Source: Tricholomella constricta
Taxonomy: Eukaryota > Basidiomycota > Agaricomycetes > Agaricales > Lyophyllaceae
Direction: 5' to 3'
DNA: 64,000 nt
NCBI GenBank assembly: GCA_013368375.1
Contig: JAACJP010000028.1
Location: forward strand, 248,001 to 312,000
Shown: positions 13,871-64,000 of the stretch, piece by piece
How the letters are laid out: every line of letters begins with the position of its first letter
How positions within the stretch are numbered: position 1 is the stretch's first letter
Notes under the pieces: generated by a model
Databases searched by the model: none
Told to the model about the DNA's origin: nothing
The model's input: the letters and a program-made list of their open reading frames with translations, nothing else
Made by a program: the position numbers and the translations under genes

Positions 13871-16244
13871 TTAGTCAGGACGAAGAAGGTCATCTCGAGG
13901 GATACTATAAGGTGCTTTGAGCTTGCGACGGAGCTCCTTAATGAGAATGCGATTGCGGCGTTTAATCATCTCATCAAGAAAAAATTCGTAGCGGTCAATC
14001 TGCATCTCACGGACCATTGATTGAAAGCCACCGAACCAAGCATTCGCTTGCTCAGCAGCAGAAGAATTGAAACACCATTTCCCATCATCTGTTCGCAGCT
14101 CCGGCCAGATATATGGGTTGCAGTGTCGCCCACAGTCCTCGTCTGACTCTTTATGCTTGCACTTGAAGTGGAAGACGTCAACCGGAAGCGCGCAGTTGTC
14201 AAAATAATGTCGCATGTAAGGGTCTTCTTCATTCTTGAGCATAGCGACGATTCGGCAGTTGTTATCATGCCAGAGAACGGCGGGAAGCGAGGCTTGAGTG
14301 GGAAACAGCTTCATCCAAAATGTCTAGAAAGAAATACGTCAGAGATTGCGATGAGTGAAGAGAAAATAATGTACTCGGACACCATTCGGAGCTTCAGACC
14401 CATAAAATGTCGCTCTGCCAAGGATCACACCACAAGAACCAACACAAAGCTGTTCGTTGTGGGTACGCCGTCGCCCAAACCGAGCCCTGACAGCACGGTT
14501 CCCAGCCTCAGGTTTCCCATCGCAAATCCCCCGTTCATCGACAACAATTTCGTCATCTTCATCAACGCCGGGCCCCTCGAGTTTGTCGTCATCATTACTG
14601 TCATCGTGGGTGTCTGGCTGCAATGCGGCGGGTGATAGGTCAGCTTCATTCGGAAGTCGGCCACGGGTAGTCGACAAGTCAGAGCCCGTTGCCAGAGAGT
14701 CATGAGTCTGCGAGACTTTGAGGCGTTCCAACCGGTGCTTGAGCTGAAACATTGCTTTCCCTTTTTGGTAATGGTAAACTTCGATAGCGCGATGATCTGG
14801 GAGGGGACAAGTACGAAAACCGAGCTCGATAGGAGCCCCACATGCAGTGACAGCACATATTCTTGAAAGATGGTGGTGAGTGGGGCAATGGTGGTGCTTG
14901 ACCGAAGCCAGGGGGATGGGGCAGTCGTGTGAATCACAACAAGGGCACCCAATAGTGACGCCATCGGTAACAGTGGAGCGGCAATGATCTAGACTGGTGT
15001 CAGTAAAAAGATAGATAATGAATGCAAGGGAACTCACAAGAGACGCCGTCTTCATCAGTATACACCCAACAACACAAATCGCATGCGTGGTTCCAAGCCT
15101 CCTGACCAGGCCCAGCCATCTTCTTGTTGCGCTTTTGCAAGGCTGGCTGTAGACGTACTGCCTGAGGTGGCGCGTTGTGAACGAATTCGAGTGTCGTCGA
15201 TGTTTCTTGATGGTCGAGAATGAGGGCGTGGATGAAAAACCCATTCCAGACATCTTCCACATCGAGCTCGAGACTTGTGGGCCAATTGACTGGCAGCAAC
15301 GGCTTGATGTGTTCATTCTGAAGTCCAGTGTTGTAGATTCTTGCACAATTGGTAGCCGATGTCCTATGATCAAGGCATTAGTTGATTTGACATAGAATAG
15401 AGAATGTAGGGCATACCAGGACGTGACCATCATCATCGCAAATAGCTCGCAGACCTCTGCCGCCATATAAAAATGCTGTGAAGTTTGAATGAAGGGCATT
15501 TCCTTGTTGCAATAATAAGTCCGCGTCGTGGCTTTCGAGTGAACGTAGAAATTGGCGTAGTAACGTGTATTGCACTCTGTCAACATAGGAAACAATTAGA
15601 TATGGTCAGTGAGACTTAAGAAGAAAGTATTGACATACTACGACAATATCGAGAGGTAGCATACCCTGGTACAGCTCCAAACTCCTTCGAGAAGATGGTA
15701 ATGGGAAACGACAATGGTTCCACCAAGTCGCGGTCCCGTCGCACAGTCTCGTCTGCAAGGAGAGGCCGTGAGCATTGAGGGTCAATGCATACCTGCGTTG
15801 GGGGTTCCAAATCATAGACTCCTAATGAACATGATGATTTAAATAACTAAAAGGCAAGGTGCAATGAAACATACCAATTTGACGTGATAAGCCATGATCC
15901 AAGAACAACTGCACATATCGGGCACGGAATGCGATCTCCTCAGCCTTTTCCAGTGGAGGAAGCTCCCAAGTGAGTTTCTTCAATGAGTGCCATGCTAACT
16001 TGCCGACGCGATCTGAAATCCCAAGAGATAGCTTCAAAAAGTCATGTATGTGAACGGGGAGTGTTTCCGGTGCCTCAGGTCGATAAGAAGGCTGGAGTCG
16101 GCAGAGCTTGGGCTTCAGGAGTCGGATGAGATCAAGATATCTCACCGTGGTAGCATAATCGAAGGTAGTCTGTAGTTCCGGGTGCTCAAGGAGGGTGGCT
16201 GAAAGCTTGAAGATGTCCATAATAGTGGGAGTTGCGGTGCTCAT
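13871..16244 (-). CDS. CxC5/CxC6 cysteine-cluster protein associated with KDZ transposases
   Basis: A multi-exon minus-strand gene starting at the ATG at 16244-16242. Exon 1 is 16244-15875, exon 2 15821-15639 (with CIDPQCSRPLL), and exon 3 starts at 15576. Splice phases agree across these joins. The middle holds the CxC5-type region with WNHACDLCCWVYTDEDG. Next comes a CxC6-type cluster (GCPCCDSHDC, HHCPTHH and CAVTACGAP), then a conserved C-terminal part with LWHDNNCRIVAML, FKCKHKE and FNSSAAEQANAWFGGFQ. Such genes accompany KDZ (Kyakuja-Dileera-Zisupton) DNA transposons; the cysteine clusters probably bind zinc and DNA. No lesion was noticed in the parts read, so it may be active. The catalytic KDZ transposase itself is not in the window. 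Confidence 0.8.
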
Positions 16245-16458
16245 TCATTGGTGCATTGATAAGGAAAATTTTTATTGGCATTGGGTCCCAGCATCGGAGG
16301 AGAGAGGGCCCCAAGACGGCGACAGCAACGATGAAGACAACAACAGAGCGCTGAGGGACCAAGCGTTGATCCGTGGGATAATTATTGGTGGCCGGGTCCG
16401 AGGTCCGAGTCCGAGGTCCAGGTCCTAGGACCTGCCTCCCAGTCGATCCGACGTTCTC
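16245..16458. repeat. 214-bp direct repeat, copy 2
   Basis: Identical by eye to 1-214 and directly adjacent to the start codon of the CxC5/CxC6 gene. It is therefore probably the promoter/5' leader or terminal region of that mobile unit. Confidence 0.85.
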
Positions 16459-17751
16459 GAGAGAGCAAGCTAAGAGTCAATCAATGTATAAACCCGAAGA
16501 TACTGTTATTGTTCAGGTTGGAGATATTCCATCTCCAACCCAGGCTTATATACTACATCGCCGAGCCAGTGACTAAGGCGGTATGTAAAGGCGCTGACTA
16601 CTGATGAGTAACAATTGTCCAGCTGACTGATAGGAATCTAAGTAGTGGTGCCAGTGTGGGAGTAATGGCTACGAAAGGGGCGTAAGAACAGTATGGCGGT
16701 CAGCAAGTATGTCTAAGGCGGGGGCCATGGGGGCCGATGACAGAGGACAAGAGACTAAGCAATAATAGGAGTGGGCGCACGGTGCATCCCCTTACATCGG
16801 CAGTGTCGAGGCTTAGAGAATGACACCAGGCCCAGAGAGCCATAGCGATGTGTTGTAGAGTAGTGTTCAGTCGGTTATTGGGGAAACGACTGTATTAGCT
16901 AGTACCTGTTGTAGAGTAGTGCTAATACGAGCATGTAAGTAAATTGTCCGTAGATAAGTAAACTTGGCCACATACCTCAGTCGGTTATTGGGGAAGCAAC
17001 TGAGGTATCTGTCCGATCGTTAGTCAATATATATTGATGGTACTGCATAGTACCATATCTGCCTCCGTCTCCTTTCTTTCCCTCGACGCCCCGGTCACAT
17101 GGTTCCTGGCGCGTCAATAGCGCGAGTCGCGTAAACAACACGATGATGGTGTGCGGTTTAGATCTGGAAGTGCATCACTATATATGGCTATTTCGCTTTA
17201 TATGGTGCATGGGACAAAATCCTTCATTTTTATTATAGAGATGTACGCGCGAGCCTTTTTTTTCCCTTGGGCTAGCCGTGCGCGCGTTACGTAGCCCTAC
17301 ACCACGAAAGCAAACTTTTCCCAACCTTATGTAGATTGATTATGTTGTAGAGATAATGGCCAATGATGACTGCATTTGATACAACGCTTGTTTGTTTGAC
17401 GTTGTCCGGCATCATGCCCTTTTGACACCATCAGTGTCCATTTTCTGACATCTTCATCTACCGTTGAGTAAACACCATTTTCAAAGCTCATACTGTTACT
17501 TCTACTTGATCATTTTGACAGTTCACCTGAGAATCTGTGAACACCTGGATGTGGCCGTAATTTGGAGCTCATCACTGGCCAAAGCGTGACATGAGCAGTC
17601 TCAATCCAACCTGACCTCGAACGCCAAAGCTTTCAAGTAGGTTCTGCATCGTGCCTTTCACTCGCTTTTGCTCGCTTTGACTGCCTTCTCTGAATATAAA
17701 TTCGTCTTGTGGATTCAATGTCATCAGTATCTCAAGATTCTCTCCTTCGCG
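16459..17751. other. unassigned, with an LTR-like segment at about 16851-17099
   Basis: No coding gene is supported. TGTTGTAGAGTAGTG occurs at 16851 and 16907, and CAGTCGGTTATTGGGGAA twice (near 16869 and 16977). The segment from 16851 or 16907 to 17099 begins TGTTG and ends TCACA, followed by TGGTTCCTGGCGCG, which could be a primer-binding site. It may be a remnant LTR of a Copia-type element, but no partner LTR or pol is present. Confidence 0.3.
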
Positions 17752-18732: not shown

Positions 18733-18782
18733 CTGACATGTTCAATCGTGAGATGCAGAAGATATCAGGAAGAAACCGGCAG

Positions 18783-19016
18783 TGTAACGACGGCGCGTTA
18801 CAATACGTCTATATTGAGACGCGACCTGTTTGGCATTACCTTCTGGTAATGCACGACCATCTTTGTTATGTGTATATAAATGTCCTGTACAGTTTATGCT
18901 TAGATAATCCTTTGCACCTTCACCCTGTACACGTACTTAGCAGAATCCCACAGATTGGTCTAGCTTAACGTGTCTGGTGTCTCGCAAGGATCCCCCAACC
19001 CCGTACAACCGTTACA
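18783..19016 (+). repeat. 5' LTR of element B
   Basis: 234 bp, TGTAACG to GTTACA. It contains an 8-bp-stem hairpin at 18833-18852 and a TATA-like TATATAAA at 18873-18880. The sequence after the LTR begins CTTTTTTAAGC and does not start with the usual TGG of a tRNA primer-binding site. Confidence 0.95.
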
Positions 19017-19130
19017 CTTTTTTAAGCTACCCAGCTTTGCTATCTGCTTAACTGCTCTCTATCGTCGACGTCGACTCGCTTATCAGCGCCATCACCATCA
19101 CCACAACCCTGAAACGAAGATCTATCTGCG

Positions 19131-22100
19131 ATGGATCCAAACCGAGCGCCACCGAGCGCTACCAGCTCTGAAAACACACCAACGATACAATCTATCGTCG
19201 ATCCGCCAGTACCGCGACCTCCTATTGCCTATGTGCCGCCTCAACGTCGTTCGGACGAAGTCGGGCAAGGTGTAGCAGCAGCAGAGGGACCAACAGCGGT
19301 AAGTAGTCTGGAGCTACTATCAATGCACGCCACAGAGCGCCCAGCCGCAAGGTTAGGCACTCTGGGGGTCGAAACTGCTGAAGATGCGAGTCTTAGACAT
19401 GCATCGGACGATGGCCCTGTACGATTGGCTCTGCAACAAGCGTACGCCGCGTACGCCGCCTCCCCGGCCCCCACTGCTGTGCCACAGTCTTCGGTACAAG
19501 CCCCGGTACACGCCAACACGGATAACCAGTCGGTTACGAGTGCGTACCTTCGACGACGGGCGTTATCGCCTGTCAGCTCGACGGCAGAATCGGACACCGG
19601 GACCCTGAACATCTTCAGGTTCTCGCCCCTCCTTAAGCGCCAGGTGCACCTCTACTGGTCAGAATACCAGTCGATGGTCCCAGACGCTAGTCGACGTACT
19701 CAGATGAATGAGAACGCGCTAGGCTCCGCCTACGTACACTGTGCGATCATGGACACGGAGCCTGATACGAACAGTATCGAATTTGTAAAGCTAGTTATCG
19801 AAGGCATTCGCTTCGAAATAGATAACTATTCTATGGCCACTGTCTTGGAAGCATCGAGGTCTTCGACACCGAAAGCTCCGCAAGCAACAGTAGGAACGAC
19901 ACAAGCAGCCGACAGCATCGGCCCTGTGCTCACTATGCCTGTAAAAATCGAGGATCGTGTGGATGAAACACACGACGGCGTCAAACCGATTGAGGAAAGG
20001 CCTGCGCCTGCTCAAACACTACGGTTCACAACTGAGACATCACCGCCTGTGATACAAGTCCCTGGGAATGCATCCCGTCGATACCCAATGGCAGACTCGT
20101 GGGCAGACAGAGTCGCCCTCCAGCGCGAGCGGGATCGAGACTTGCAGCAACAGGGTCATTCGGTTTACGATGACCAGGGAGTGATCTTTATCGGACGTCA
20201 GCCCGTCGACCAAATGAAGAGCATTTATTTCGAGTCGATTGAACAACCTCACGAACAGGATAATAATGTGCAGAGTGCCCCCTACGATGAGCACCTGCAG
20301 GGACGTGATCAACAGCAAACATTTGCTAGAGATCGACCTCCTCATGAGACTCCCGTAGTTCGTACGCATTTTACCAATGCTCGTGGACGCGGTAGGGGAA
20401 TGAGTGTCGTGAACCCTATATCACGAAACCCAGGTAGACCAAGTGAAACCCCTGGGCGTGGGTTCTCGATGCCTCCGCAAGTGCGGTCAACTTCCCGAAA
20501 CCCTGGAGTCGCTGAAGCCGTGGAACAACACCGAGATTCTATGCATGTACGCTTGAAAGCGCTGCTAGAAGAACAACTCGGTACACGCCTGCAACTTCCC
20601 GAGGGTAGTAAATTGAGGCGATCTGACGCGTCCAAAACTATAACTCCATACGCTGGAGGAACCAAGTTTAGCGACCTTGAAAGGTGGCTAACGGACGTGT
20701 GCGTTCATTTAGCCGCATGCCAGTATGGTGGCGACGAACGCGACCGTGAACGCGTGCTCGTTGTACCAGAGTTTCTCAGAGGAGAAGCTAAGACATGGTA
20801 CCAGCGCCACGTCGTTCATGTAAACCGTCGTCAACGTCATTGGACGTTTGAAGACGTCATTCTTGGATTGTATGATCGCTTTGTACAGCCGTAACAATGC
20901 AGGATGCACGAGAGGACTTCTACGATGCTACTTATAATGAGAGCATTGGAGTTCAAGGGTTTTATGACGAGCTCATGGACCACGCACAAAATATGGCTGT
21001 GTTCCCAGATGAATACACCGTGCGTGATACCTTCCTGGAAGGTATACCCAAAGATATGCTCGTCGCCCTAATTAAGGAAGGCGGATTGTCACCTGAGATA
21101 AATACAGTCGATGAGTTTGTCTCCGAGGCGAAGGCGTATGAGTCTGCCTCTAAGACAGCTGCACACTACCTTGCTCGAAACTCACGCCGTCGCTCGCGCC
21201 GGAGTCCCGAAGTAACATCTTCGAGGCCCCGCGGAGGTGGGCGAATCGGTACCACTTTCATTCGCAAGTCCGCCTTAGCAGGAGGACTACACGCGAGAGT
21301 GGTGGCTACGCCACTGCGTGGACGAGGAGGAAAGGTGGGAGTGCAAGCACGCCCTGACCCGAACTCGGGTGCGCCACCCAATAGACAGTTGGAATGCCCC
21401 CAACTGCATTCATCTCCGACACCGAATCCGTCACCAGCGGCAGATGTCATCTGCTACAAATGCGGAAAGAAAGGTCATTACTCGAGAGAATGTAAACAGA
21501 AACCGTACCCCGTGCGTGCTCAGATACGAGCCGCTCGGACCGCAGTTGATGAAGAGGACGATGATTCGGACATGGATCAGGAGAATGAGGCTGATGACGA
21601 GAGTGGACATACCTCTGCTAATGAAGCGGATAATCCACCTGAGTCGTTGGTAGACAGCGACAGCGATGAACTCATTGAGGTCGATGTCTATGATAATGAC
21701 TACTACTCCCGAGACAGCGAGACTGAAGTCCTGAGGGCGATAACGGAATTACCGTTGGATGAAACTCGCCAGATAAAGATGCGCAAAGTACATCTTCGCG
21801 CATCGAAAGTAGCTAAGGCTCGCCCAGTGCATAAGCGCGACGACAAGGAGTGTTTGGCCACATATGTCAATGTAGGCGGACACGACGCGTGGACGCTATG
21901 GGACTCGGGTAGTACAACTACGGGCGTAACCCCGGCATTCTCCCAGGTAGCAGGACTGCGCGTGTATCCGTTGGATGCACCGATAACGCTGCAATTGGGA
22001 ACGATTGGAAGTCGCTCGACAGTGAACTTTGGGTCTGATGCGTTAGTTAAAACACACGGATCTGAAGAAATGCTGTATGTCGATATAGCAGACTTTGACC

Positions 22101-22273
22101 GATATGATATGATTATCGGTACACCGTTTATGCGAAAGCATGGAGTAATCCTTGATTTCGCGACGAATACAGTTGTGGTCAACGGTGTATCAACCGAAGC
22201 CACGAAGGTAGACCTCCGGGATACTGATGGACGGCTGCGCCGCTATCGTACCACGGATAAACCCCGGGATTGA
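19131..22273 (+). pseudogene. gag-protease region of element B (frameshifted)
   Basis: The first frame (19131-20894) has a long disordered N-terminus, an RG-rich stretch (ARGRGRGM) and a retrotransposon-gag domain reaching LGLYDRFVQP, where TAA stops it. The domain resumes at once in another frame from 20897 (MQDAREDFYDATY), so one base is missing at about 20892. This second frame carries a CCHC knuckle CYKCGKKGHYSREC near 21452, an acidic linker, and a retropepsin-type protease with WDSGSTTTG near 21899 and DMIIGTPFM. It ends with a TGA at 22271-22273. The next ORF lies in the same frame after that single TGA. Confidence 0.85.
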
Positions 22274-23262
22274 CTCCCACGAGTCACAGTAGAAGACGTT
22301 CCGGAGGAAGAGGTGCACAAAATGCATAGTCTTCCGTCGGATGCGCCATGTCTACTGATGAGCGAGGAAGAGTATATAGATACTCTTCAGGGGGAGAAAG
22401 GGTCAACCGAGTATGAAAAGAAAGACAAAACGCACAAAATGCAGCACAAAGAACCCAAATCTTCGCAAATCGATAATTTGGATAGCACTGAGGAGAAGGT
22501 AAAATTACCGGAACCACAAGTGTCGCCACAAGTGGCGCAGGAGAAACCCAAGCGAACATTTTGGGATCGACCTGTACCACATCCGCACGTCGATTGGGCG
22601 TACGATCCTCGAATGCCATTGGAATGGAACGAGGTAATTGCGTCCATGCGTGCATATACGCGAGTCCAAGCGCCTCAAGGCGAGATATATCGCGATGCGC
22701 GCCCAGACGAGATATCCGAACCGTCAGTATACGTCAGGACAATAGCTGGTAGTACTACAGGAAGTACGCCACAGTCACGGCAAGTACGACTGGAAGTACC
22801 AGATGAGACGGAAGAACGGATACAAGCCCTCCGCGATAGGTATGAGAAACCAACCACGGAAGGGAAGCGACGAAAGGATGGGAATACAAAAATCAAAAGT
22901 AAACTCACTACTGAAGATTATCCCCGCCTACGTCAGCAATGGCATGATGAGTTTCAAGATATGGTGAACGGAACTCCTAACACGTTACCACCGTGGAGGG
23001 AAGTTAACCATGAGATTCATTTAATCGATGAGAATGCACGGTATCACTATCACTTACCGCGGTGCCCAAATTCGCTGAGAGAAGAATTCCACGCGAAGAT
23101 AAACCGCTATGTGGATGCTAAGTGGTGGGAGCCATGGTCCGTCAGCCAAGCAGCCCCACTACTGTGCATACCGAAGAAAGATGGTTCGCTACGAACTGCA
23201 CTCGACGCACGTCAACGAAACGATAACACCGTGAAAGACGTGACACCACTACCCGATCAAAG
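22274..23262 (+). pseudogene. reverse transcriptase N-terminal remnant of element B
   Basis: Directly after the TGA the same frame continues through a linker to an RT N-terminal part (NHEIHLIDENARYHYHLP, then LLCIPKKDGSLR and VKDVTPLPDQ). Normal RT sequence, including the YxDD catalytic motif and RNase H, is missing. After PLPDQ the sequence jumps to LNKVADCLSRYF, which normally follows RNase H. The deletion joint is at about 23256-23265 and changes frame. No active polymerase can be made from this copy. Confidence 0.85.
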
Positions 23263-25145
23263 GAGAACTGAACAAAGTAGCTGATTGCTTATCCCGCTAC
23301 TTTGAAGGAGACGCACCTAATGAGGTGCAGAGCGTCAACGACTATGTACGCGCTGACGCGCGAATAGATCCAGACGGAGAGGATCTCCCACCTTCACGAC
23401 TGCAAGAAGTGGCTGAACGAGTTATTGAAATTCGAGCCATGCAGGACGTGGAAGTGAGGCGTAGTCGCCGCCTCCAGGAACGGCGTGAGGATCGAGAAAT
23501 CGAAGCCGCCATCCTGGAAGAGTTTCAGCAACCTACCGTACAGTCTGAATCCTCGACCGGTCAACAACCGGATGGGGCTACTTCAGAACGCGAACAAACG
23601 TTGGGCGAGGCATTGTTTCAACAGCCCGCACCTGCGCTGCGTCCAGACCCACACCCACGGAATGGCGATGCTTCATTCCTGGAGGTAGTACGGAAAGGTT
23701 ACAAAACCGATAAATTGTTCACGGTAATAATGGACAAACCCGGTGAATTCACGCATTTTACACACCGAGATGCGTTAATTTGGACAACGAATCCAGCCGG
23801 CGTAGAAGTTCTATGTGTTCCTCGTGATCGTAACTTGATCACTCAACTCATAGAACAAGCACATACGTCCGTTGGACACTTTGGAGCCCAGCGTACCACG
23901 GAATACCTCCGACGCTGGTACTGGTGGCCCACCATTACCGCAGAAGTTCGCAAGTTCTGTCAAACTTGTGAGTCATGTCAGCGAGCCAAGGGTTTGAATC
24001 AAAAACCTGCTGGCAAAATACATTCGCTACCAGTGCCCATTAAACCATGGGACTCCATTGGAACGGACTTTATAGGCCCGTTCCCTGAATCAAAAGGCTA
24101 TAATTACCTGTGGGTAATTATGTGCCGCATGACGAGCATGGTGCACTTAATTCCAGTACATACGCGCATGACCGCGTCGGAATTGTCCTGGATATACATG
24201 CGCGAGATTGTTCGTCTGCATGGTCTTCCTAGTTCCATCGTGAGCGATAGGGACTCGAAGTTCACCTCCAAATGGTGGCGAGAACTTCACAAGATCCTTG
24301 GATCGAAACTGCTCATGTCCACATCGTTTCATCCTCAAACGGATGGACAGACTGAACGTGCAAACCGCAGTATCGGACAAATATTCCGTACTGTGGTGCG
24401 CCACGACCAGAAAGACTGGGTCGATCGCGTAGATATGACCGAGTTCGCACTTAATGCGAGTATATCGGAGACAACCAAATACGCGCCATTCGAACTCAAC
24501 AGCGGATACATGCCCTCCATGATCAAGGAAATTCGCAGTGATAATGTGATTCCTCGGGGTATTCGCCAGTTCACAGAACAAGCCCTTTCGAATCTCGCGG
24601 AAGCCCACGATGCTATTATCGAGGCCCGCGTGTTCCAAGCGCTGAATGCAAATAAACGCCGGAGTGATGATCCTAAGATTAGCACTGGCGATTTAGTTTA
24701 CCTTTCTACGAAGAATTTAAATCTTCCAAAGGGTAGAGCACGCAAGTTGTGCCCCAAGTTCGTGGGGCCATATCGTGTATTGAAGGCGGAGCCAGAAACG
24801 TCAAATTATACGTTGGAACTGCCCTCCGCGCTTCAGCAGCGACGCCTGCACGCGAAATTCCATGTTTCCGTGCTGAGACCGTACTACGCTACGGAGGACG
24901 CACTGTTCCCGAATCGAGCGCACCCAGAGCCTTACGACTTTGGTGCACCAGACGACCACGAGTGGTTCGTCGAGGAGATTCTGGGACATAGATGGTCCGC
25001 GGGCGCCATTGAATTTCAAGTTCGATGGTCCCTGGGGGACACTACGTGGGAGCCGCGTGAACACTGCGAATCCCTGGCAGCTCTCGATAGATACCTCGAG
25101 CTCCAGGGGGTGAAGCGTATATCGCAGCTCGCAAAGCTGCGCTGA
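23263..25145 (+). CDS. integrase with chromodomain, element B
   Basis: The open frame runs from the deletion joint to the stop at 25145, with GTG at 23325 or ATG at 23344 as later possible starts. It has an HHCC finger (HTSVGHFG, then CQTCESCQ), a DDE core (GTDFIGPFPE, SDRDSKFTS, TDGQTERANR), a basic GPY/F-type segment (KFVGPYRVL) and a C-terminal chromodomain (VEEILGHRW, VRWSLGDTTWEP). In the family, integrase inserts the cDNA and the chromodomain can steer insertion to marked chromatin. No stop or frameshift was seen. It lacks an attached RT, so normal Pol processing is not possible for this copy. Confidence 0.9.
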
Positions 25146-25286
25146 GGTGTGGCATGCAATGTGCGCCACACAGCCACAGCGTGGCTGGACTCGATCACTT
25201 CGATCGAGTGGAGCTCCGATCGGGGGAGCGAAAAATTTTCTCTCTGCCCCCTTGTGCACTACCACTATCACTAAAAATCGCACCTA

Positions 25287-27935
25287 ATGTCGTCTGGACA
25301 AGAATCAATGAGTTTTCGAGGAAACTCAAGAGGGGGAGGAACGCGTGGACGCCGCGGTCGCAATAACCGCAGCGCTACGAGTAATTCACCTCGCGTACAA
25401 CATGCGCAACAAACTACGCAACTGCAAAACCAAGCACAGTCTCCACTGTCGTTTGGATCGATAGCATACCAGCCAACAATGGTACCGAGCTATCAGCCGT
25501 TCGAAGGACAGAATCCTTCCAACACAGGCGAGACGCCTGCTCCTGGACCCGCCGTTGAGCGCCTGCACGCTCCAATGGATGTCGATGGACATGGAGCAGG
25601 GCAACTCGAGCCTGGACAGCTGCCTGATGCTAAGAACAGAAGCGTCGAGATGGGACGCCCCTCACACCAGCGTGGTGGTAACAAACCACACCGCCCAAAG
25701 GGGGGTGAACGAGCCGTCGAAGAGAAGGAAGGAAATCCCTCGAACTCTCACGGAAATACTCGAGGTACGCATGCTGCGACACGCAACGCACCACATGCTA
25801 ATATGGGAACGAACCCAGACGGTATATTCAACCGCCTCGAGACCGTCGGAGTAGCACCCGACTTTGTAGTCGACTTTATCCATGATGGAATGGCAAGGGT
25901 CGTGATAGGACAACTACTCGACACCATTGACCGCCTTCAACGAGAAGTTGACCAGCAAACTATGGCTAAACGCCACATCACCGAGGAGCTGCAACGCGCG
26001 CTACGTAAGCGCCCCGCATCGCCGAACGCGATGCCTTATACCGACAAGCGTAGTCGGACGCAGGGTCCTCAGACCGCACCCACATCGGTGCAGTCCACGG
26101 CGCCAGCGCAAGAAATAGGATCTGCGCCCACAAGCGCCGCCAAAGTACCTCTAGTGATCCCCACTATTGAGGTACCCTTTCCTCTTGGCGTACCTCCGCA
26201 CATTGATGCTGGACGTATTGTACTTACGATACATCAGGCCTTTGCGGTGCCCGAGCAGATGCCCGTCGACGATGTACGATTGGTCGACGCTAGCTCGCCT
26301 GCCGATGAACCAATGCAAGAGACTGTAGAGCCCTCTACCATCGGTACGCTGAAGGAGGAACCAGCAAGCGAAACCGCCGACGAGCGTAGCTTACGAATGA
26401 AGCACAACGCCTCAGTCCGCCACGACCGCCTTGCTGCAGACCGAGAAGCCAACGAACGCTTGAAGTATAACTTCGAGACATTCGTCGGACGCATTCCAGA
26501 TACTATTGGCGTACTACACATCAATGGTACTCCCGAACGCCACAACACGTTTGGTGGACTACTTCACCGACGCCTGTACTGGTCACCGTACAGTAATACG
26601 GTGTTTGCCTCTCAGAGCGCTAGTCGCGCTCTAGAATACGAACGTGAACACAAAACCGCATTCAATGCGACAGGCTCACCTTTGTACAAGTGTGCACCTC
26701 GTGGGTTCCCTATGTCCCCTCGAGACATCCGCAATCTGGTTCAGTTCCGTGACGATAACTTCAACATGGATACCAAACGTGTGGAAGCCCACTACCTACT
26801 CTGGGACTTCTATCGTATCGCTTCACGATACGCCGAACCCCACAGAGACCGGACTATGAAGTTTATCCTTCAACGAGAATACTTCGATCCGGCTCACAAA
26901 CCATCGATACGCGATGACGCTGCGTGGACACGACCTGTGTTACCACCGCCCGCTGGAGTATTGTCCACTTCAGCGCGCAACCCTCGAACCCGAGGTGCGG
27001 GTTTACCCATACCATCGGTATCGCAAGCCCTGGACTTCAACGTGTGGGGACAATATATTGTACACCACGGAAGGCCAGGCCTAGACAACGTATATAGCGG
27101 ACTAGTGATCGACTACAACTTCTCGATCCACTTCCGCACTGTGGTCGGGTACGCCCTTGGTCGCGCCATAAGCCCTACCCGAGCCGCATCTCGTGTCGCA
27201 TTCATGCGCCTATACACCATGATCATTGCTCGACCGAACCTCTATCGAGAAGCGGTGGACTCGTGGAATGCCATTCACCCATTGGATCGCATCCCCGACC
27301 ACTTACCTTCTACGGCAAGCCTTGGTCGCTTAGCTCTTCCTGAGGAGCATGCCGCCAACTTAACCGAAACGGACGTAATCCGTACGCTTTTAGCCAATCG
27401 ACTACCCGTCGCTTGGATTGATCACGCCTATCCCTACGGCCTCCACTACTTGGATGCGCATTATACGGGAACCACAATTGATCGTACACTATACGACAAT
27501 GTGGACGACGACCGACTTGTTCGGCTATGTCGTTACGGGATACCTCCGGCCATTCCTCAATGGGATGGATGGCGACAGCCGACCCGCGATGATATCGCTA
27601 GACTCCACGTACTACTCGACTGCGAGAAAGAGCGAGGACTGGACACTGCGCACGCTCGCGGCCTACACCCTGTAGGATACGACATCACGTCGATGAAATT
27701 CATCACCGGACGTGACCGCGAAGCTACTGTACTCTACGACGGCGATCTGGTGTTTAACGATACCACTGACCCGCCTGCGCCACCACCTATGGTGGAAGGT
27801 CCTCCGCTCCCAACTATCGAGTCCACTACGTCGCCAGCACCCTCTGCTCCATCTAGTTCATCCGCACCACTGGTCCTTCTACCAGAGGCTAACGCTTCTG
27901 ATGACCATGCGATGGATGTAGCCGAGAAGGCTTAA
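25287..27935 (+). CDS. element B third ORF (ORF3), 882 residues, unknown function
   Basis: A long intact frame between the integrase stop (25145) and the 3' LTR, the place where env-like or accessory genes sit in some retroelements. It starts with ATG and a basic RG-rich N-terminus (GRRGRNNR), then a disordered region. Block I near residue 180 has DFIHDGMARVVIGQLLD followed by a likely coiled coil. Block II near 400-480 has RIPDTIGVLHINGT and APRGFPMSPRD. A large globular block near 570-770 has TRGAGLP, HHGRPGLDN, YGLHYLD, NVDDDRL and PPAIPQWDGW. It ends Pro/Ser-rich. The same blocks occur in element C ORF3. No signal peptide, membrane segment or zinc knuckle is seen, so it is not an obvious envelope or gag copy. 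I recognise no family. Confidence 0.85.
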   Translation: MSSGQESMSFRGNSRGGGTRGRRGRNNRSATSNSPRVQHAQQTTQLQNQAQSPLSFGSIAYQPTMVPSYQPFEGQNPSNTGETPAPGPAVERLHAPMDVDGHGAGQLEPGQLPDAKNRSVEMGRPSHQRGGNKPHRPKGGERAVEEKEGNPSNSHGNTRGTHAATRNAPHANMGTNPDGIFNRLETVGVAPDFVVDFIHDGMARVVIGQLLDTIDRLQREVDQQTMAKRHITEELQRALRKRPASPNAMPYTDKRSRTQGPQTAPTSVQSTAPAQEIGSAPTSAAKVPLVIPTIEVPFPLGVPPHIDAGRIVLTIHQAFAVPEQMPVDDVRLVDASSPADEPMQETVEPSTIGTLKEEPASETADERSLRMKHNASVRHDRLAADREANERLKYNFETFVGRIPDTIGVLHINGTPERHNTFGGLLHRRLYWSPYSNTVFASQSASRALEYEREHKTAFNATGSPLYKCAPRGFPMSPRDIRNLVQFRDDNFNMDTKRVEAHYLLWDFYRIASRYAEPHRDRTMKFILQREYFDPAHKPSIRDDAAWTRPVLPPPAGVLSTSARNPRTRGAGLPIPSVSQALDFNVWGQYIVHHGRPGLDNVYSGLVIDYNFSIHFRTVVGYALGRAISPTRAASRVAFMRLYTMIIARPNLYREAVDSWNAIHPLDRIPDHLPSTASLGRLALPEEHAANLTETDVIRTLLANRLPVAWIDHAYPYGLHYLDAHYTGTTIDRTLYDNVDDDRLVRLCRYGIPPAIPQWDGWRQPTRDDIARLHVLLDCEKERGLDTAHARGLHPVGYDITSMKFITGRDREATVLYDGDLVFNDTTDPPAPPPMVEGPPLPTIESTTSPAPSAPSSSSAPLVLLPEANASDDHAMDVAEKA

Positions 27936-28059: not shown

Positions 28060-28089
28060 GAGATCATACATTGATCTCAAAGGGGGGTG
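28060..28089 (+). promoter_or_regulatory. hairpin and polypurine tract of element B
   Basis: GAGATCA (28060-28066), loop TACAT, TGATCTC (28072-28078) form a perfect 7-bp stem that abuts AAAGGGGGGTG, which runs to the 3' LTR at 28090. The run is the plus-strand primer site. The hairpin has a counterpart in element C with a different stem sequence. Confidence 0.75.
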
Positions 28090-28323
28090 TGTAACGACGG
28101 CGCGTTACAATACGTCTATATTGAGACGCGACCTGTTTGGCATTACCTTCTGGTAATGCACGACCATCTTTGTTATGTGTATATAAATGTCCTGTACAGT
28201 TTATGCTTAGATAATCCTTTGCACCTTCACCCTGTACACGTACTTAGCAGAATCCCACAGATTGGTCTAGCTTAACGTGTCTGGTGTCTCGCAAGGATCC
28301 CCCAACCCCGTACAACCGTTACA
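28090..28323 (+). repeat. 3' LTR of element B
   Basis: Identical by eye to 18783-19016. The hairpin copy lies at 28140-28159. It is followed by the GGCAG target duplication. Confidence 0.95.
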
Positions 28324-28334
28324 GGCAGGCTTAC

Positions 28335-35049: not shown

Positions 35050-35857
35050 GGGCTTATTCTATCCAGCAACCCCCCTTCGTTGGACTAACCCCCCTTCGTC
35101 AAATCTTATCCAGCAACCCCACTTGTCATGCGGCTCATGCCCGTTACTGCTGCCGGCCTCCTCCGAAATAAACTTTAAAATGTGACTCCCGTCCCATCAT
35201 TGGCTTCATTCCCATGATCGTCATCGTCGGCTCACTGGCGGTGGTCGTTTAAGTTGTTGCCCACGACGAGCTCGACATTCCTTTTTTGATTCCTTTATGT
35301 ACAGCTTTCCTACATGTTCCTACTTGCATGGATAGAACAATACATGCCTTCACCTTTTCTCAAGTGTTTTTCCAATGCAGATTCCCTTCACAGAATGGGA
35401 AATACATATTACCTGTACTATACCTAACGGGATGGGCAGCAGATAAATAGCTACATGAAGGGATGGATCAGATACTTCAGTCTCTATACATACAGGAAAT
35501 ATATCTAGAATTATTTTAGAACAAAAAAAATGTGTGGAGAGCTTGTCGATGCACCGAAAACAGCATTTTATATCTCATACTATATGAACACCCAAGTGCC
35601 ACCGCGATTCGCATGAACGAGTATCCGAGTTGTAACAGACTCAGAGAAATTAACTGTGGACAGAGTCCAGGCTAAGACGGAGTGCACCCAGTCAACTGTG
35701 CCGTATATATATTATCCTGAGAATATATACAAGTATGGTAATCCCCCTCCACCGTCGCCGGCCGTCCCCAACCCCCTTGCTAAATAGAGAATCGAAGGAG
35801 TTCGTCCACGAACCCGGGGTTAGTCCAACGAAGGGGGTTGCTGGATAGAATAAGCCC
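35050..35857. mobile_element. 808-bp non-autonomous TIR element (MITE-like)
   Basis: The left end GGGCTTATTCTATCCAGCAA and the right end are inverted copies over about 44 bp, extending through CCCCCTTCGTTGGACTAACC with one indel. The 7-bp AGATGAC flanks both ends (35043-35049 and 35858-35864). No ORF of note inside. A second partial copy of ATCCAGCAACCCC lies at about 35108. The ends suggest a cut-and-paste DNA transposon derivative; the superfamily is uncertain because 7 bp is not a standard duplication length. Confidence 0.8.
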
Positions 35858-35883
35858 AGATGACGGTCTACATGAAAGAGTTC

Positions 35884-37311
35884 CTAAAAGAAATCGAGTT
35901 TCATTGCTTGACCGTACTTTGCCAAGTACCACGCTTCATTCATCTCTTTATACTTGCGGTATTCATCCATCCTTCCGAGGCCGAATGAAGCGGCTATCAA
36001 CATCGAAATGTGAGAGCCATATTCTTTGAGGTTTTGCCGGCCAGCCGCCTCAATCGCCGCCATCCAATCTTTGCTGTACTGCATTCTGTCTTTGTTACCG
36101 TTGAGGTTACGGTTGTGGGACCACACGGAAGGTTCCAAAGTGCTCTCCTTGATCTTTGCAAGCAGCGCATCAGAGGTTGGGTCAGAGCAGAGACTGCAGG
36201 TACACTCGAAATCGTAGGACTTGAGGTTCGCCTGGCGTTCAGCGGTAGGCTCCGAGGTTGAGCAATAGGCGATAAAAACCTCTTCATCTTTCTTAATGTC
36301 GCGGATGGCCCGAAGCTCCAATGAGAAAGAGGACATGGTGAAGCCGTATGCGGCATTTGGGGCGCAACTGCACGATTAACGAAGTCAAGCTCGACAAGGT
36401 GTCTTAATCTGGTCATTGATGCGCACCTGTGGTTGATACGAGAGATGTCGTTGAAGACCGCGCTATACCCGTAATCGCCTGCATCCAAGTCGGATTTCTC
36501 TGTCTTTTCTATGATTCCGATCCCGTTCGTCCTGATTCTGCCAAAAATAGGCCCGGAGCCGTCTTCCGTGTGAGAATTGTGCAACGCGAGGAACGCAGCA
36601 CGATTCTCAGGAAGCATCCTGCCGAGACAAATTTCGAGGGTTTTCTCATACTCAGCCATTCTCCCCTGCGTGAACTGAAGAAAAGTCGGTTTAAAGCCTT
36701 TTGGGAAGTTTGGAATCAGAGGGGGGAGAGCACTAGGAGACACCAGGAGAGGCCGTTCGGATACGATGAGATCGCCCATCTTGATATTTCGGGTGGCAAA
36801 CATACCAATCCCAAAACGAGATGGTTTGATGCGATGACGAATCTGAGGTGGCCTGGGTATAGGCGATGGAAAGCCAGGCGTCGATACGATCTCGCGCTTT
36901 TGCTTTCCTCCCAAGAACAGACATTCGGTCCAGTTATCCGGATTGTCCGCGAGAGTGTCCCCAAAGGATTGGGAAGGGAGAGTGGTGCAAAGACGTGCAT
37001 TATCAGGATAAATCATGTTACGACTATCGCACTCTTTCACGATAGCTTCGGAAGGTTCATAGCCTTCGGGAAGAGCTAGATGCCAGATTAGACGCGCACG
37101 CTGCGGGTGCAAGGATTAAGTTACATACTTGTATCCACTTTCCCAATGGGAAGCTTCACTTTCAGCATTTCTTTAACAAAGGACATTGAGCGATAGATCA
37201 GACAGATCGAAGGAAAAAGCAACAATACACACCTGGTTTTACGGGAGTGGGGGGCCCACGAGTTTCCACGGACCGTTTGGCCCGTTTCGTATTCAAGAAT
37301 CCTCGTTTCAT
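35884..37311 (-). CDS. SET-domain protein (SMYD-like, no MYND finger), copy 1
   Basis: Putative protein-lysine methyltransferase. Minus-strand exons: 37311-37233, about 37170-37139, 37100-36427 and 36367-35884, ending LDFF and TAG. Motifs: FGIGMFATRNIKMGD (SET start), and NHSCAPNAAYGF formed across the 59-bp intron 36368-36426, which is the substrate/cofactor signature. Next come EEVFIAYCSTSE (with the SET tyrosine) and a post-SET-like CTCSLCSD. No MYND cysteines seen. Between 37101 and 37138 the genomic frame has a TAA after VDTSM. A 38-bp intron starting GTGGAT would restore phase, otherwise the copy is broken. It is paralogous to 56864-58222, including flanking DNA. The substrate is unknown. 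Confidence 0.7.
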
Positions 37312-38336
37312 AATAGGGTGGAGAGAGCGCGCGATAGTACAATCTTTTACAAGGGAGCAGTCAGTAGTGAGGGTTGGGTGTTTGACGATAAGATGGATCA
37401 TCAAGTGCATGCTTATATCCATTCTGAATCAGCTCGGAAGCTCTCCAAACGAGGACAATGGACGATGATTGGCGACACGTGTAGGTAATGGATCCACACA
37501 AGGAGTTATGGACCTTTGGGAACCATCGCTGATCCCAGGGGATTCGTGGTGACTCGTTGACTCGTTTCGCAGCGTTGAACAAAGCATTCCATTGTTCTTT
37601 TAACCCCATGACTCGGACAGCGACTGACAAAGTCCTTTGCTGCACCAAATCAAAGCCAGACAATTAGAATAGAAACACGGCAAATCGAATCAGTGGAAGA
37701 TGTGAGCAAGACAATTGGCAGAGGTCGATGAGAGTCATGCGAACAATCGCGAAGGTCAACTTGGTAAGGGTCTGCATAAGTGTCTGTGCCTGTTGATTGA
37801 CCCCGCAGTGGCCCGCGTAAGAAAACATTGCTTTCCGTCATCGGGAGAAAAATGCTGTTGATCGCATTGTAAGGAATCTTTGTGAGAACATATGAAAATC
37901 CTAAGAAAACTGACCAAGTGAATATTCTCCGAATCGTACAAGTAAAGGGTCCTCCTCTTAGACGGGGTCCTCGCTGGTCCTCGTCTCAATCATATGATGA
38001 AGCTAGAAAGGGTATAATCGCATCACTGTCAGCTTTACATCGATTCATATCATCAGAATTCCTTGCATCGTGCGTGTCCTAATACAGTTCAGTACTACAA
38101 TGCCATGTCGAAGAGCTAGCAGCTGCCCTTGCTGACCCACCAAAGAATATGGTCATCCTGAAGATCAGTCTTGTCACGGAAGTGAAAGAACAATAACCCA
38201 GCCTCTCGCGATCAGAAGTGCCAGCTCTAGAGTGACCGGACAAAACAGAACATGTTACATGCATGGGCGTGACCTGCAAGCGTCCTACGCGGCGGTCAGC
38301 AGGATCAAGGCGGCTCTCTCCCTGTCATCAAAAAAG
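37312..38336. repeat. upstream part of a segmental duplication, no gene seen
   Basis: Non-coding by my reading, but similar segment by segment to 58223-58920. Shared patches include GTGCATGCTTATATCCATTC (near 37408 and 58316), CAAACGAGGACAAT and GTCAACTTGGTA. With the SET genes it makes a duplicated block of roughly 2 kb in direct orientation. Confidence 0.6.
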
Positions 38337-56663: not shown

Positions 56664-56863
56664 AAACGTTGATAATAACTGGATGGAACCAAGATGGAAC
56701 GGCTTTAAACGCGTCAGTCGGTGGTCACGATGACCGTGACTGTCGCGGTGTATTATGTAATTATAAAAAAAACAATCGTGTCGAAATTATGGCGCACAGA
56801 TATAGGTGCTACTATCGAAAAGCAGGCGCGCCGACAACAGGCTACATGAAAGAGTTTCCAAAA

Positions 56864-59642: not shown

Positions 59643-59863
59643 TGTAACGGGGTTACAAGATTGGGGACCTTGCTGTGCACGCTAGACGTAAGCTTGACAA
59701 GTCTGTCGATTGCTACGTATAGGTGTACAAGGTCTACTATTTAATTATGTAATGTAAAGGATTAAATAGGCAACACCGGAAGGTGTTGCCAAACAATAGC
59801 ATAATCGTGTCGATAAGATACGATTAGATCAGATTAGTCGATAAGATAGTAAGCGCCCTTACA
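59643..59863 (-). repeat. 3' LTR of element C
   Basis: 221 bp. On the minus strand it begins TGTAAGGGCG and ends CCCCGTTACA, resembling the element B LTR termini (TGTAACG, GTTACA). It contains a perfect hairpin at 59769-59790, GGCAACACC, loop TTCC, GGTGTTGCC. Confidence 0.85.
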
Positions 59864-59895
59864 TACCCCCCTTTAAGATCGCTAGTAGCGATCTT
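59864..59895 (-). promoter_or_regulatory. hairpin and polypurine tract of element C
   Basis: On the minus strand, stem AAGATCGC, loop TACTA, stem GCGATCTT (59895-59875) abuts AAAGGGGGGTA (59874-59864), followed by the LTR. It has the same layout as element B (28060-28089), with different but still paired bases. Confidence 0.75.
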
Positions 59896-60238: not shown

Positions 60239-63200
60239 CTATGACTCCATCACTGTGTCGGGGTCGGTGGGGTTGGATTCCACCGGACCCTGGCTAGTGG
60301 TAATCACTGCCAGTGATAGAGGCCCTGTGAGGGCCGACACGGGGTCCACTTGGGTTTCGGTAGCTCCTATTGGAGCTGCCACGACTGTGGAAGGTGTCAC
60401 GGGGGCAGGTGTGAGTGCCGCCGGGTCCGCCATTTCGACGTTGGTAGACGTCGATCCCGATGGAGCGGGAGTGTGCAGGTCCGGAGGGGGAAACTCCCCT
60501 CTCCGAACACGGAGTTCTCGGAAATGTGGGTCTTCACCCACAAACATCCATTCCACGCTGGATAAACAATCCAGCCCCTCGTTCTGAAACTCCAAGCGCA
60601 TTAACGTTTGAATGCGCGTGATGTCGTCGGTGGTGGGATGGTACCACCCGTCCCATTCCGGAATGGCGGGTGGCACGCCCAATTGATCGAGTCGACACGC
60701 GATCGTCGTCAACATTGTGGAACAGGTCCTTATGAGGACCTGCAGTAGAGTAGTTATGGTCTAAATAGTGTAGACCATAAGTATAACTGTGGTTTATCCA
60801 ACTAATTGGAATACCACAGTTAATAAGGTGTTGTAGGACACCTTGTTCCGTCAGCCGCCCTTCGGGAGCGGTAGGTTGGATCCGAGGGATAATAACCTCG
60901 GGTGCGGTAATCGGCGTGAACGGCCGATCAGGGTTGGCCCCGTTATGGGCCGCCACCGCTTCTGCATAGAAGTATGGCCGTGCGGTGATGGTTGCAAAGA
61001 TTCGCATAAACCATGCCCGCATACTATGAGTTACTGGCGACAATACGTTTGCCAGTAAGTATCCCCAGGTCCCGCGACGATGAACGCGGAACCGGTAGTC
61101 CATGACGATACCTCCATATTGGTTCTTAGAACCAATACGCCCATGGTGAATCATATGTCGACACCAATGTTCGACATCCAATGCATGAGCTGGGCCGGGT
61201 TGGGGGAGACCAGCTCCTCGTGTCGGCTTGTCATGCCGATATTCGAATGCTTTACCCGGCCGTCTAATGACCGGGGCATTCCAGATGGGTGACCGTTCAC
61301 TGAACGGTCGTGAGACGCTTCGGAATTCGTCCATGGCTGCACGAGCCATGGCTCGGTCGCGCAAGTGAGGCGCGACCGACAGGGTGATCCGACGGAATTC
61401 TCTGAAGAGCATAAAGGCCTCGGCCCGCTCTTCATCCCTCACTCCATGGCGTCGGTTATTGATCAGCTCATAGAGCTGATCAACTTCACGGGGGTTCATT
61501 GGGAACCCACGTGGTGCGACGGCATACAGCTGTCCATCTGAGGGACGGGAGTTTTGTCCCGTCCCTAGCTCGCTCTCTGAGACGCGAGCTGCTGTGCCTA
61601 GCGCAAAGGCACGATTCTGGGCAGACGACACATATACCGTCCGCGACACCATATCCCAGAAGCGGTTGTCCTGCTCGTGGCGGCCGTTGATAAAGACCAC
61701 CCCAAGCTCTTCAGGGATCCGTCCCGGCGCCTCCTTCTCAGCTTTGCGAGCCATATTCTCGCGATGCTGCTTCTGCCCGGCAGCCTTCTTCTTGCTGATG
61801 GGTTTCTCATCGTCGGAGGACTCGCCGTAGTCCGACTCGTCCATAAATTCGGCGTACGGGTCAGACGCCTTTTGTTTGCCTTTGCCCTTTGGCGGAGGCG
61901 ATGGGGGCTGCACCATCGTAGTGGGTGGTGCAGGGGATGGTGCCGGCAAGGTATACTTGCCAACAGGTTCCTTCTTTTGGGACCCTCTCTCCGGGTTTCG
62001 TACCCGGCTTTCTCCCGGGGTCGGTAGTGGGAGTAATGCTCCCGCTATATGTTGCTGTTGCGGTGCCTGCACCGCGGATGTCGACGATGTCGACGCCCTT
62101 CGCTCGACTTCTCGAGCCGGTAAGGGACGCACTTCGCGTGTCCCTTGGTCCTCGCGACGCTCCTCTCGTTGAGGACCATAATCAAGTGGGCGCTCATCAC
62201 GCCACACTTCCTGGTCGGGATGGCGGTCGAACCGCCGATACTCTTGTTCCGGGCGTCGTTCCTGACGCCTGGGTTCATATAAGGTGCGTTCTTCTCGCCG
62301 CACCTCGGTCTGCTGTCTTTTCATGGGTCGGGACGATGGTCCCTCCCCGCGATCTGGCGACGCCACTGCCGGTCGCTTTTTTGCCAGGCTGAGTTGCTCA
62401 GCCATGGCCGACTCTCTCGCCTTCACGCGTCTCAAGTCCGCGCGAACTCCATCGTACGCATCAAGCAGCTGGGTTACAACCAGCTGCGCCATCCCGTCGT
62501 CCAAGAAATCACAAAACTCGCGGTGAATACCCGCGTCTTCCAATCGGTCCAAGATAGACGAAAGGAGACCATCGTCTGCGAATGGTCTTGACGCAGACGA
62601 CGCTGCGCGATCGTCTGCCGGCCTCCGCGAACTCGACGCAAACGAACCTCTTTGTTCGTCTGCATATGGCGCGACATATTGCCGCGCCGGTTCGCTGCGC
62701 GCCACTTGCGCCGGTGGAGTAGGTGTTTTTTGACGACTTTGGTCGTCCACCTCCATCTTCTCTGACTCGTTGTACCGCGTATTTTGCGGTACGGTTGGGG
62801 CGGGCATTTGGGGGTACCACGTCGGTGGTGGGTACCCCATGAAGCTCTGCATTGATGGCATATGTTGATATGCCATCGACGGTGGGTAGAACCCACCCGT
62901 CTGTGGTTGTTGCCCCTGGTGGGGCGGTTGGCTCATGTGGCCAACCATAGGGTAAAATTGTTGCCCCTGATGGGGCGGTTGCCCCTGGTGGGGCAGTTGG
63001 CTCATGTGGCCAACCGATGGGTATTGAAATGCTTGGGGCTGCACGCCCATATAGGTTGGGGGCGGGGGCGCGCTTTCCGCGCGTCCCTGCACCTCCTCCC
63101 CTTTTGGACTCGATCCCGAGGCCATATTTTGATAGTCGGTGCGGCTGTCGCCGCCCCGAGTCGCGTCGTTGCTTGAATTTGCTCCTGCGGTTGGGTACAT
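60239..63200 (-). pseudogene. element C third ORF (ORF3), one frameshift
   Basis: ATG at 63200 (MYPTAGANSSNDATRGG), following the integrase stop at 63326. The N-terminus is Pro/Gln/Gly-rich with repeats of HQGQ type. Conserved blocks shared with element B ORF3: DFLDDGMAQLVVTQLLD plus a coiled coil, RIPEELGVVFINGR, VAPRGFPMNPRE, TRGAGLPQPG, HHGRIGSKN, MRIFATITARP, YGLHYLD, NVDDDR and PPAIPEWDGW. The last block is in another frame because of a one-base shift at about 60691-60702. The C-terminus ends TVMES. The internal Arg/Glu-rich part is specific to this copy. Function unknown. Confidence 0.8.
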
Positions 63201-63325: not shown

Positions 63326-64000
63326 CTAGGTTCGTCGCGGCAACCTCGATGCGCTGCCCACCCCTTGCAATTCCAAGTAGCGGTCCAATGCCGCTAACTT
63401 GTTACAATTATTGTGCGATTCCCAGGTGGTGTCACCTAGACTCCACCTAACTTGGTATTCCACTTTATTATTTTGGGTCCATCTATGGCCCAAAATCTCT
63501 TCGACAAACCATTCGTGATCGTCCGGCGCCCCAAAATCATAGGGCTCCGGGTGAGTTCTATTAGGGAACATTGCATCGTTTGTTGCGTAGTATGGGCGCA
63601 ACAGCGATATGTGAAATGTTGGATGTATTCGACGCTCCATAAGCGCCGTAGGTAATTCCAGCGTATAGTTCGACGTGTCTGGCATGGCCTTCAATACTTT
63701 GTAGGGCCCGACGAATTTCGGACATAATTTCCGGGCGCGTCCCTTGGGAAGGTTCAAGTTCTTGGTAGATAAATATACCAAGTCACCCCTCTTTATTTCC
63801 GGACCAGTGGATCGATGCCTGTTTGCCTCGCGCGTTTGAAATACGCGCGTTTCGATTATAGCGTCATGCGCCTCCGCTATGTTCTGCAATGCGCGTTCAG
63901 CGTATTCCCGAATTCCCTTTGGTATTACGCTGTCTGAGCGTATCTCTTTCAACATGGACGGCATGTAACCATTCAACTCAAATGGAGCGAACTTGGTGGT
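63326..64000 (-). CDS. integrase C-terminal part and chromodomain, element C (partial)
   Basis: The frame is open from the window edge to the stop at 63326. It matches element B integrase closely: GYMPSMLKEIRSDSVIPKGI, DLVYLSTKNLNLPKGRARKL, KFVGPYKVL (GPY/F-type), DFGAPDDHEWFVEEILGHRW and VRWSLGDTTWE (chromodomain). The catalytic DDE core lies beyond the window. No lesion seen. Confidence 0.9.
   Translation of the reverse strand, partial: TTKFAPFELNGYMPSMLKEIRSDSVIPKGIREYAERALQNIAEAHDAIIETRVFQTREANRHRSTGPEIKRGDLVYLSTKNLNLPKGRARKLCPKFVGPYKVLKAMPDTSNYTLELPTALMERRIHPTFHISLLRPYYATNDAMFPNRTHPEPYDFGAPDDHEWFVEEILGHRWTQNNKVEYQVRWSLGDTTWESHNNCNKLAALDRYLELQGVGSASRLPRRT

Follow-up and report, generated by a model that had tools for sequence, protein, structure and literature searches.

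A conserved, non-envelope third open reading frame under purifying selection in a Ty3/gypsy chromovirus lineage of Agaricales

Introduction

Long terminal repeat (LTR) retrotransposons are usually thought to manage with Gag and Pol alone, and in most of them gag is reported to be the only other open reading frame (ORF) (Muszewska et al. 2011, PMC3248453). Plant LTR retrotransposons are described as carrying additional ORFs (aORFs), and the 3' accessory gene of Grande is reported to encode a nuclear protein made from its own promoter (PMC11963269). For fungi, a figure legend in Novikova et al. 2010 (PMC2864245) notes an additional ORF of unknown function in Gypsy elements. Here we analyse ORF3, a large third ORF on the sense strand of element B, a Ty3/gypsy element in a 64,000-nt stretch of the genome of Tricholomella constricta (Agaricales). 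This stretch is called the window, and all coordinates are positions in it.

A first-pass annotation of the window had placed this ORF between the chromodomain and the 3' LTR of two diverged elements, B and C, and had suggested that it serves a function, perhaps in packaging, nuclear entry or host interaction. Conservation and selection lead us to conclude, with very high confidence, that an Agaricales chromovirus lineage of Ty3/gypsy has in ORF3 a genuine accessory gene that is conserved and does not encode an envelope.

Results

ORF3 is shared by several element families

In element B, ORF3 lies exactly where it had been predicted and runs without interruption for 882 aa (Table 1). Element C, which lies on the minus strand at 59643-64000 and runs past the end of the window, shows the same succession of integrase, chromodomain, ORF3 and LTR. 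In sibling copies of C, ORF3 is open for 990 aa; the C copy in the window has an 11-nt deletion, after which its frame differs. The B and C proteins align with 34% identity over 408 residues (E 1e-63), so the ordered blocks that the first-pass annotation had listed as common to both are not due to chance. One of these blocks, PPAIP.WDGW, is out of frame in the window copy of C because of the deletion: the translation there reaches ...NVDDDRV and then continues into an unrelated tail.

At least four element families of the T. constricta genome carry ORF3, namely B, C, C2 and C3. Searching the genome with the B protein returned at least 53 matches, window copy included (51 of 258 candidates scored, the counts being lower bounds); 21 of them span residues 1-882, and 14 of these 21 are free of stops. 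The C protein returned at least 51 matches (50 of 293 candidates scored, again lower bounds), comprising C copies about 96-98% identical to the query and 26 C2 matches at 82-83%, of which 22 contain no stop within the matched part. ORF3 sequence was also present in the DNA downstream of all eight further integrase copies that were read, one of these ORF3s being fully open, one limited to the first 134 residues and six split by frameshifts; two of the eight copies represent C3, which is about 77% identical to C and C2. One genomic copy (L037) and the host protein P0007 (hypothetical protein D9615_006027) have the same end, ...IESTTSVRVVTG.

ORF3 is under purifying selection

The first-pass annotation had named a ratio of nonsynonymous to synonymous divergence (dN/dS) near 1 across copies as the outcome that would speak against a function. 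The values found are far lower. Between C and C2 (976 codons), dS is 0.533 and dN 0.098, giving a dN/dS of 0.184; in 90-codon blocks the ratio is 0.05-0.24 at codons 188-914 and 0.41-0.48 at both ends. The corresponding C/C2 ratios are 0.047 for reverse transcriptase (RT), 0.089 for integrase (IN) and 0.115 for gag-protease (gag-PR; 599 aligned residues), ORF3 being the least constrained of the regions compared. Within families, over all pairs of distinct copies, the polymorphism ratio pN/pS of ORF3 is 0.255 in B (n=18), 0.280 in C (n=19) and 0.190 in C2 (n=10), and in the same eight B copies it is 0.239 for ORF3 versus 0.058 for integrase. ORF3 is thus under purifying selection across families and is functional, as had been supposed from the mere retention of so long a frame.

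We further separated the variants by their distribution among copies, using a neutral expectation for nonsynonymous to synonymous changes (N/S) in which the substitution and CpG spectrum is held as observed. Variants common to at least two copies reach only 0.26 (B), 0.33 (C) and 0.21 (C2) of the neutral N/S, compared with 0.56, 0.94 and 0.44 for private variants, as expected if selection acts during replication and copies decay after insertion. CpG-type changes make up 114 of the 304 private changes in B ORF3.

The synonymous distance between C and C2 (copies L053 and L055) differs by region, from 0.24 in RT and 0.27 in IN to 0.40 in gag-PR and 0.53 in ORF3. Element lineages may thus have recombined with one another; each dN/dS value is valid for its own region, but no single age can be given to the families.

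Relatives of ORF3 occur in other Agaricales

A search of 5.8 billion proteins with ORF3 residues 395-775 matched eight proteins: the host's own, one from Lyophyllum shimeji, two from Psilocybe cubensis, one from Arthromyces matolae, two from Infundibulicybe gibba, and P0008. A second search added one more relative from P. cubensis. None of these relatives has a functional name; all are hypothetical proteins. P0008 and a related pol, P0023, agree in their source and in the length of their longest contig, 11,971 nt, and so appear to share one contig. In a pol tree of 108 proteins, taken from 122 (P0016, P0137 and 120 of 999 hits) after 14 shorter than 950 aa had been dropped, B and C lie close together, and P0023 is the lowest branch of a clade of 31 proteins (support 98). 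It is therefore plausible that ORF3 was already present in the ancestor of this clade; the test of ORF3 labels on this tree comprises three proteins and carries no statistical weight.

As a separate observation, the ORF3 relative P0013 of P. cubensis is annotated as one protein with a C-terminus weakly resembling Plavaka transposases (below the cut-off); its gene model was probably fused across a nested insertion.

ORF3 encodes a largely helical protein with a bipartite-NLS-like motif

The B protein consists of a disordered N-terminus, a coiled coil (residues ~201-240), a KR-x11-KR motif (241-257), a helical domain of about 390 residues (~401-796) and a disordered tail. An alignment of 11 ORF3 sequences has 27 invariant columns, all of them within B residues 433-751. 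The AlphaFold model of the domain is mainly helical (mean pLDDT 70.8, pTM 0.56). In the full-length model (pLDDT 57.0, pTM 0.48), a long helix covers 201-240, and many 10-residue blocks between 431 and 720 score 80-93, with 48-74 in places; the stretches 1-174, 242-362 and 803-882 are of low confidence.

ORF3 had been described as having no gag, pol, envelope or recognised domain signature, and our searches agree. Comparison with Pfam, NCBIfam, PHROGs and PDB sequences gave no match above the cut-off, the domain searches found neither gag nor a CCHC knuckle in ORF3, and a fold search with the modest-confidence models likewise gave none. The ORF3 profile is also unlike the gag of the same elements (hhalign probability 0.1). 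Transmembrane segments are conventionally called at a hydropathy cut-off of 1.6. The 19-residue windows stay below this value in 12 of 12 ORF3 proteins (highest 1.59, in P0015; next 1.31), revealing no clear transmembrane segment, and the members that have their N-terminus show no hydrophobic one. By hydropathy, ORF3 looks soluble.

A KR pair follows directly after the coiled coil, and a second basic pair ([KR][KR]) stands 11-17 residues further on in 8 of 9 proteins, whereas 1.6 proteins would be expected when the 60 following residues are shuffled and a window of 10-18 is allowed. Not among the nine are P0009, in which this region is missing, P0014, which nearly duplicates P0012, and C3. The arrangement KR-x11..17-[KR][KR] has the layout of the consensus for a bipartite nuclear localisation signal (NLS) and, as a motif, may be called bipartite-NLS-like. 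It lends indirect backing to the earlier suggestion of nuclear entry. In addition, some members have an arginine/glycine-rich N-terminus.

ORF3 is most simply translated on its own

In B, C and C2, gag-PR and pol are separated by one in-frame UGA (window 22271-22273; sibling copies L051, L053 and L055); the next codon is CUC in B and CUA in C and C2. UGA-CUA is a known readthrough context, and its recurrence, as CUA or CUC, in three families suggests programmed stop-codon readthrough.

The junction between pol and ORF3 is built differently. In C, C2 and C3, 125-128 nt lie between the pol stop and the ORF3 ATG, and ORF3 is in a frame other than that of pol. In B (25143-25286), where the gap is 141 nt and ORF3 is in the frame of pol, two stops intervene, namely the UGA that ends pol and, four codons upstream of the ATG, a TAA. 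Given the other frame in C, C2 and C3 and the two stops in B, the simplest reading is that ORF3 has an initiation of its own.

The leader between pol and ORF3 varies little. In its first 84 nt, 79 sites match between C and C2 and 73 between C and C3; in the remainder, 24 of 39 and 30 of 39 sites match, respectively. Synonymous sites differ by 38% in ORF3 and 22% in integrase between C and C2. Among eight B copies, the leader differs by 1.6%, versus 3.5% at synonymous sites of ORF3 and 6.4% at those of integrase. Because it is less variable than these synonymous sites, the leader probably contains a cis-acting element, e.g., a promoter or splice region, in a comparison that is subject to its short length, to unequal CpG content and, in B, to an open frame running on from pol.

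Element B is a young but defective Ty3/gypsy copy

Element B is a young Ty3/gypsy element whose two LTRs are identical. It has an LTR pair with TG...CA ends and a 5-nt target-site duplication, and the order protease, RT, RNase H, integrase, with RT, RNase H and IN read from the pol of a sibling copy (P0016), which is open for 1288 aa and includes the chromodomain. Combining the window copy with its siblings, the order is gag, CCHC knuckle, protease, RT, RNase H, integrase, chromodomain, ORF3, polypurine tract and 3' LTR (Table 1). The gag of the window copy is split in two frames; that of the sibling L051 is open for 1053 aa, and its ORF1 weakly matches Retrotrans_gag. The protease in the second ORF1 piece gives an RVP_2 match just below the cut-off. 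The chromodomain (PF00385) is found where it would be expected in both B and C, with E values of 2e-4 to 6.6e-4, at scores of 20.0-21.6 bits that lie under the Pfam gathering score of 25.1; several pol relatives are likewise annotated with PF00385.

In B, C and C2, the 5' LTR is followed by a T-run and AAGCTACC (window 19017-19032; L051, L053, L055). No TGG start follows it in these three families, and the longest self-complement is 8 nt, in the LTR of B. The window copies of B and C are both defective, yet the ORF3 of B is whole. With about 995 nt of RT/RNase H absent from a copy whose LTRs are identical, element B was either mobilised in trans or suffered a very recent loss.

Table 1 Features of elements B and C in the window.
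Feature	Position	Strand	Basis or remark
5' target-site duplication GGCAG	18778..18782	none	sequence; repeated at 28324-28328
5' LTR of element B, 234 nt, TG...CA	18783..19016	+	direct repeat, 100% identical to 3' LTR
ORF1 first piece, broken frame; gag including the start of a Ty3-type capsid region (weakly matched in Pfam)	19131..20894	+	
ORF1 second piece, capsid end, CCHC knuckle and aspartic protease	20897..22273	+	terminal UGA, next codon CUC; same frame as pol
pol first piece, start of RT	22313..23284	+	lacks ~995 nt of RT/RNase H; junction around 23259
Integrase (H2C2, rve, SH3) and chromodomain	23325..25145	+	domain matches
Leader, 141 nt, pol stop to ORF3 ATG	25146..25286	+	in-frame TAA four codons before ATG
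ORF3, 882 aa, ATG start, no interruption	25287..27935	+	ORF list and translation
Polypurine tract AAAGGGGGGTG	28079..28089	+	sequence
3' LTR of element B	28090..28323	+	direct repeat of 5' LTR
3' target-site duplication GGCAG	28324..28328	none	sequence
3' LTR of element C	59643..59864	-	repeat comparison
ORF3 of element C, 11-nt deletion in window copy	60534..63200	-	first ATG 63200, frame open to 60534
Integrase C-terminus and chromodomain of element C, running off window	63326..64000	-	domain matches

Other features of the window

Another Ty3/gypsy element, A (~2.0-8.4 kb, minus strand), contains gag, protease, RT and integrase. Only about 245 nt separate the end of its integrase ORF (2714) from its 3' LTR (~2469), leaving no room for a third ORF, and its ungapped LTR pieces are 88-94% alike, so A is older than B. 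An ORF at 14339-15595 (minus strand) has cysteine clusters, CxC5 and CxC6, of the kind that KDZ transposases typically show. A duplicated stretch (35854-37429 and 56828-58339, ungapped pieces 81-86% identical) contains in each copy an ORF that is weakly SET-domain-like (E 0.02-0.03, below the cut-off). A direct repeat (1-224 and 16245-16468, 98%), its copies 16 kb apart, perhaps represents the LTRs of an element with nested insertions inside it.

Discussion

The explanation that we favour, tentatively and at somewhat less than even confidence, is that ORF3 is a nuclear, nucleic-acid-handling accessory protein made from its own mRNA. Gag-PR and pol share one frame that is interrupted by a UGA of the leaky type; in this scheme, ORF3 would be translated apart from gag-pol, from an mRNA supplied by an internal promoter or by splicing. 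The protein would most likely dimerise or oligomerise through its coiled coil, and the bipartite signal beside the coiled coil would bring it into the nucleus, where the helical domain, together with the arginine/glycine-rich N-terminus in some members, could handle element RNA, cDNA or the integration complex. Judging from sequence features, action in the nucleus itself is a possibility that we hold with a shade less confidence still, and any given partner is less likely than that.

Several observations weigh against this scheme. The TAA before the ORF3 ATG of B is present in 16 of 18 copies and is a sense codon in the other two, which leaves a pol-ORF3 readthrough fusion in B unlikely but conceivable; and since ORF3 of B is in the frame of pol, the low variability of its leader may have another cause. 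Two of the shared variants in family C are nonsense changes, implying that some broken copies have multiplied. The structure models, of the domain as well as of the full-length protein, are of modest confidence. P0008 lacks the second basic cluster, and a second cluster arises by chance at rates of 0.37 in C, 0.47 in C2 and 0.22 in P0013, with C and C2 being close relatives, so the weight of the NLS-like motif rests on few independent lineages. RG pairs number 0 or 1 in the first 120 residues of 8 of 12 members. Finally, a mainly structural role in the virion would account for the same pattern of selection.

That last point leads to the strongest competing explanation, in which ORF3 is structural, a second coat, matrix or tegument-like part of the virus-like particle besides the Gag capsid. 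The long, mostly helical domain would suit such a part, and ORF3 evolves about as fast as gag: B and C are 34% identical in ORF3, 38% in gag (48% for the part compared with C2) and 70% in pol. A readthrough fusion to pol in B, were it to occur, would place ORF3 in the particle. However, the elements already encode a Gag that has a capsid region and a CCHC knuckle, the ORF3 profile does not resemble it, and a cytoplasmic coat would have no need of an NLS-like motif. We regard a structural role as unlikely, though worth retaining as the first competitor.

It is less likely again that ORF3 is a counter-defence protein, acting against control by the host through a block of RNA silencing or DNA methylation or in some other way. 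Its position as the least constrained region (C/C2 dN/dS 0.18 versus 0.05-0.12 for RT, IN and gag-PR) would fit such a protein, and the frequent CpG-type changes hint at a methylation response of the host. On the other hand, neither the domain searches nor the fold search matched a known suppressor, dN/dS is well below 1, and the domain blocks are conserved across Agaricales families.

The two remaining explanations are both highly improbable. An envelope-like or cell-entry protein, as in errantiviruses, would agree with a third sense ORF that follows integrase and is probably initiated separately, but not with hydropathy that stays below the transmembrane cut-off in every ORF3 protein scanned or with the lack of a hydrophobic N-terminus in the members whose N-terminus is present. 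A captured host gene, or a passenger without function in the element, is conceivable in that no relative with known function was found and that a distant single-copy gene could escape own-genome counts that are lower bounds, but the at least 53 and at least 51 matches are all at least 82% identical to the query, i.e., members of repeat families, and ORF3 is present in the diverged families B, C, C2 and C3 and under selection.

Returning to a nuclear accessory protein, a bolder version of it would make ORF3 a new, fast-evolving nuclear family with its own fold, the obligatory third gene of an old Agaricales chromovirus lineage, expressed from its own internal promoter and serving a regulatory or nuclear-delivery role, with the rank of a retroviral accessory gene. 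We consider this fuller picture rather unlikely, on a par with or marginally ahead of the structural role. Whatever its role, each element spends about 2.6-3 kb on a protein that annotation calls a 'hypothetical protein', and a large, selected third protein without known relative leaves a life-cycle step of abundant mushroom elements unaccounted for. If nuclear, ORF3 would offer a handle on how these elements reach or control the fungal nucleus.

How far ORF3 is new depends on the systems with which it is compared. The first-pass annotation knew of no description of it, and we found no paper on the ORF3 protein in an open paper library that omits most subscription papers and bioRxiv preprints; as to the ORF itself, that claim is qualified by the fungal Gypsy legend of Novikova et al. 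2010 (PMC2864245). Both ORFs belong to fungal Gypsy elements and are of unknown function, and the legend, which gives no sequence, clade or position, may include the ORF3 lineage. The basidiomycete chromoviruses of the MarY1, Laccy1, Laccy2 and Tcn2 clades, as presented in the same paper, have the same LTRs and the same gag-PR-RT-RNase H-IN-chromodomain order, but mostly one or two ORFs, whereas in the ORF3 lineage there is a third one, about 690-1090 codons long.

Bdelloid rotifer LTR retrotransposons (PMC5408684) likewise have an ORF3 besides gag and pol, of various non-envelope types among others. The rotifer types named in that paper are GDSL esterase, DEDDy exonuclease, and envelope or small transmembrane ORFs, and the mushroom ORF3 gave no match to any of these in our domain searches or in the fold search with modest-confidence models. 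With the Grande-type aORF of plants (PMC11963269), ORF3 shares the position of an extra gene between pol and the 3' LTR that is kept across copies, and it may also share a nuclear location and a transcript of its own. In Grande and Retand, the extra genes run antisense to gag-pol, whereas ORF3 is in sense orientation and in a fungal chromovirus, and the Retand genes mostly have TRP28, whereas ORF3 has no known domain. Taken together, since extra ORFs are known from plants and rotifers and a 2010 legend records one in fungal Gypsy elements, ORF3 is a variant of an already known kind of gene.

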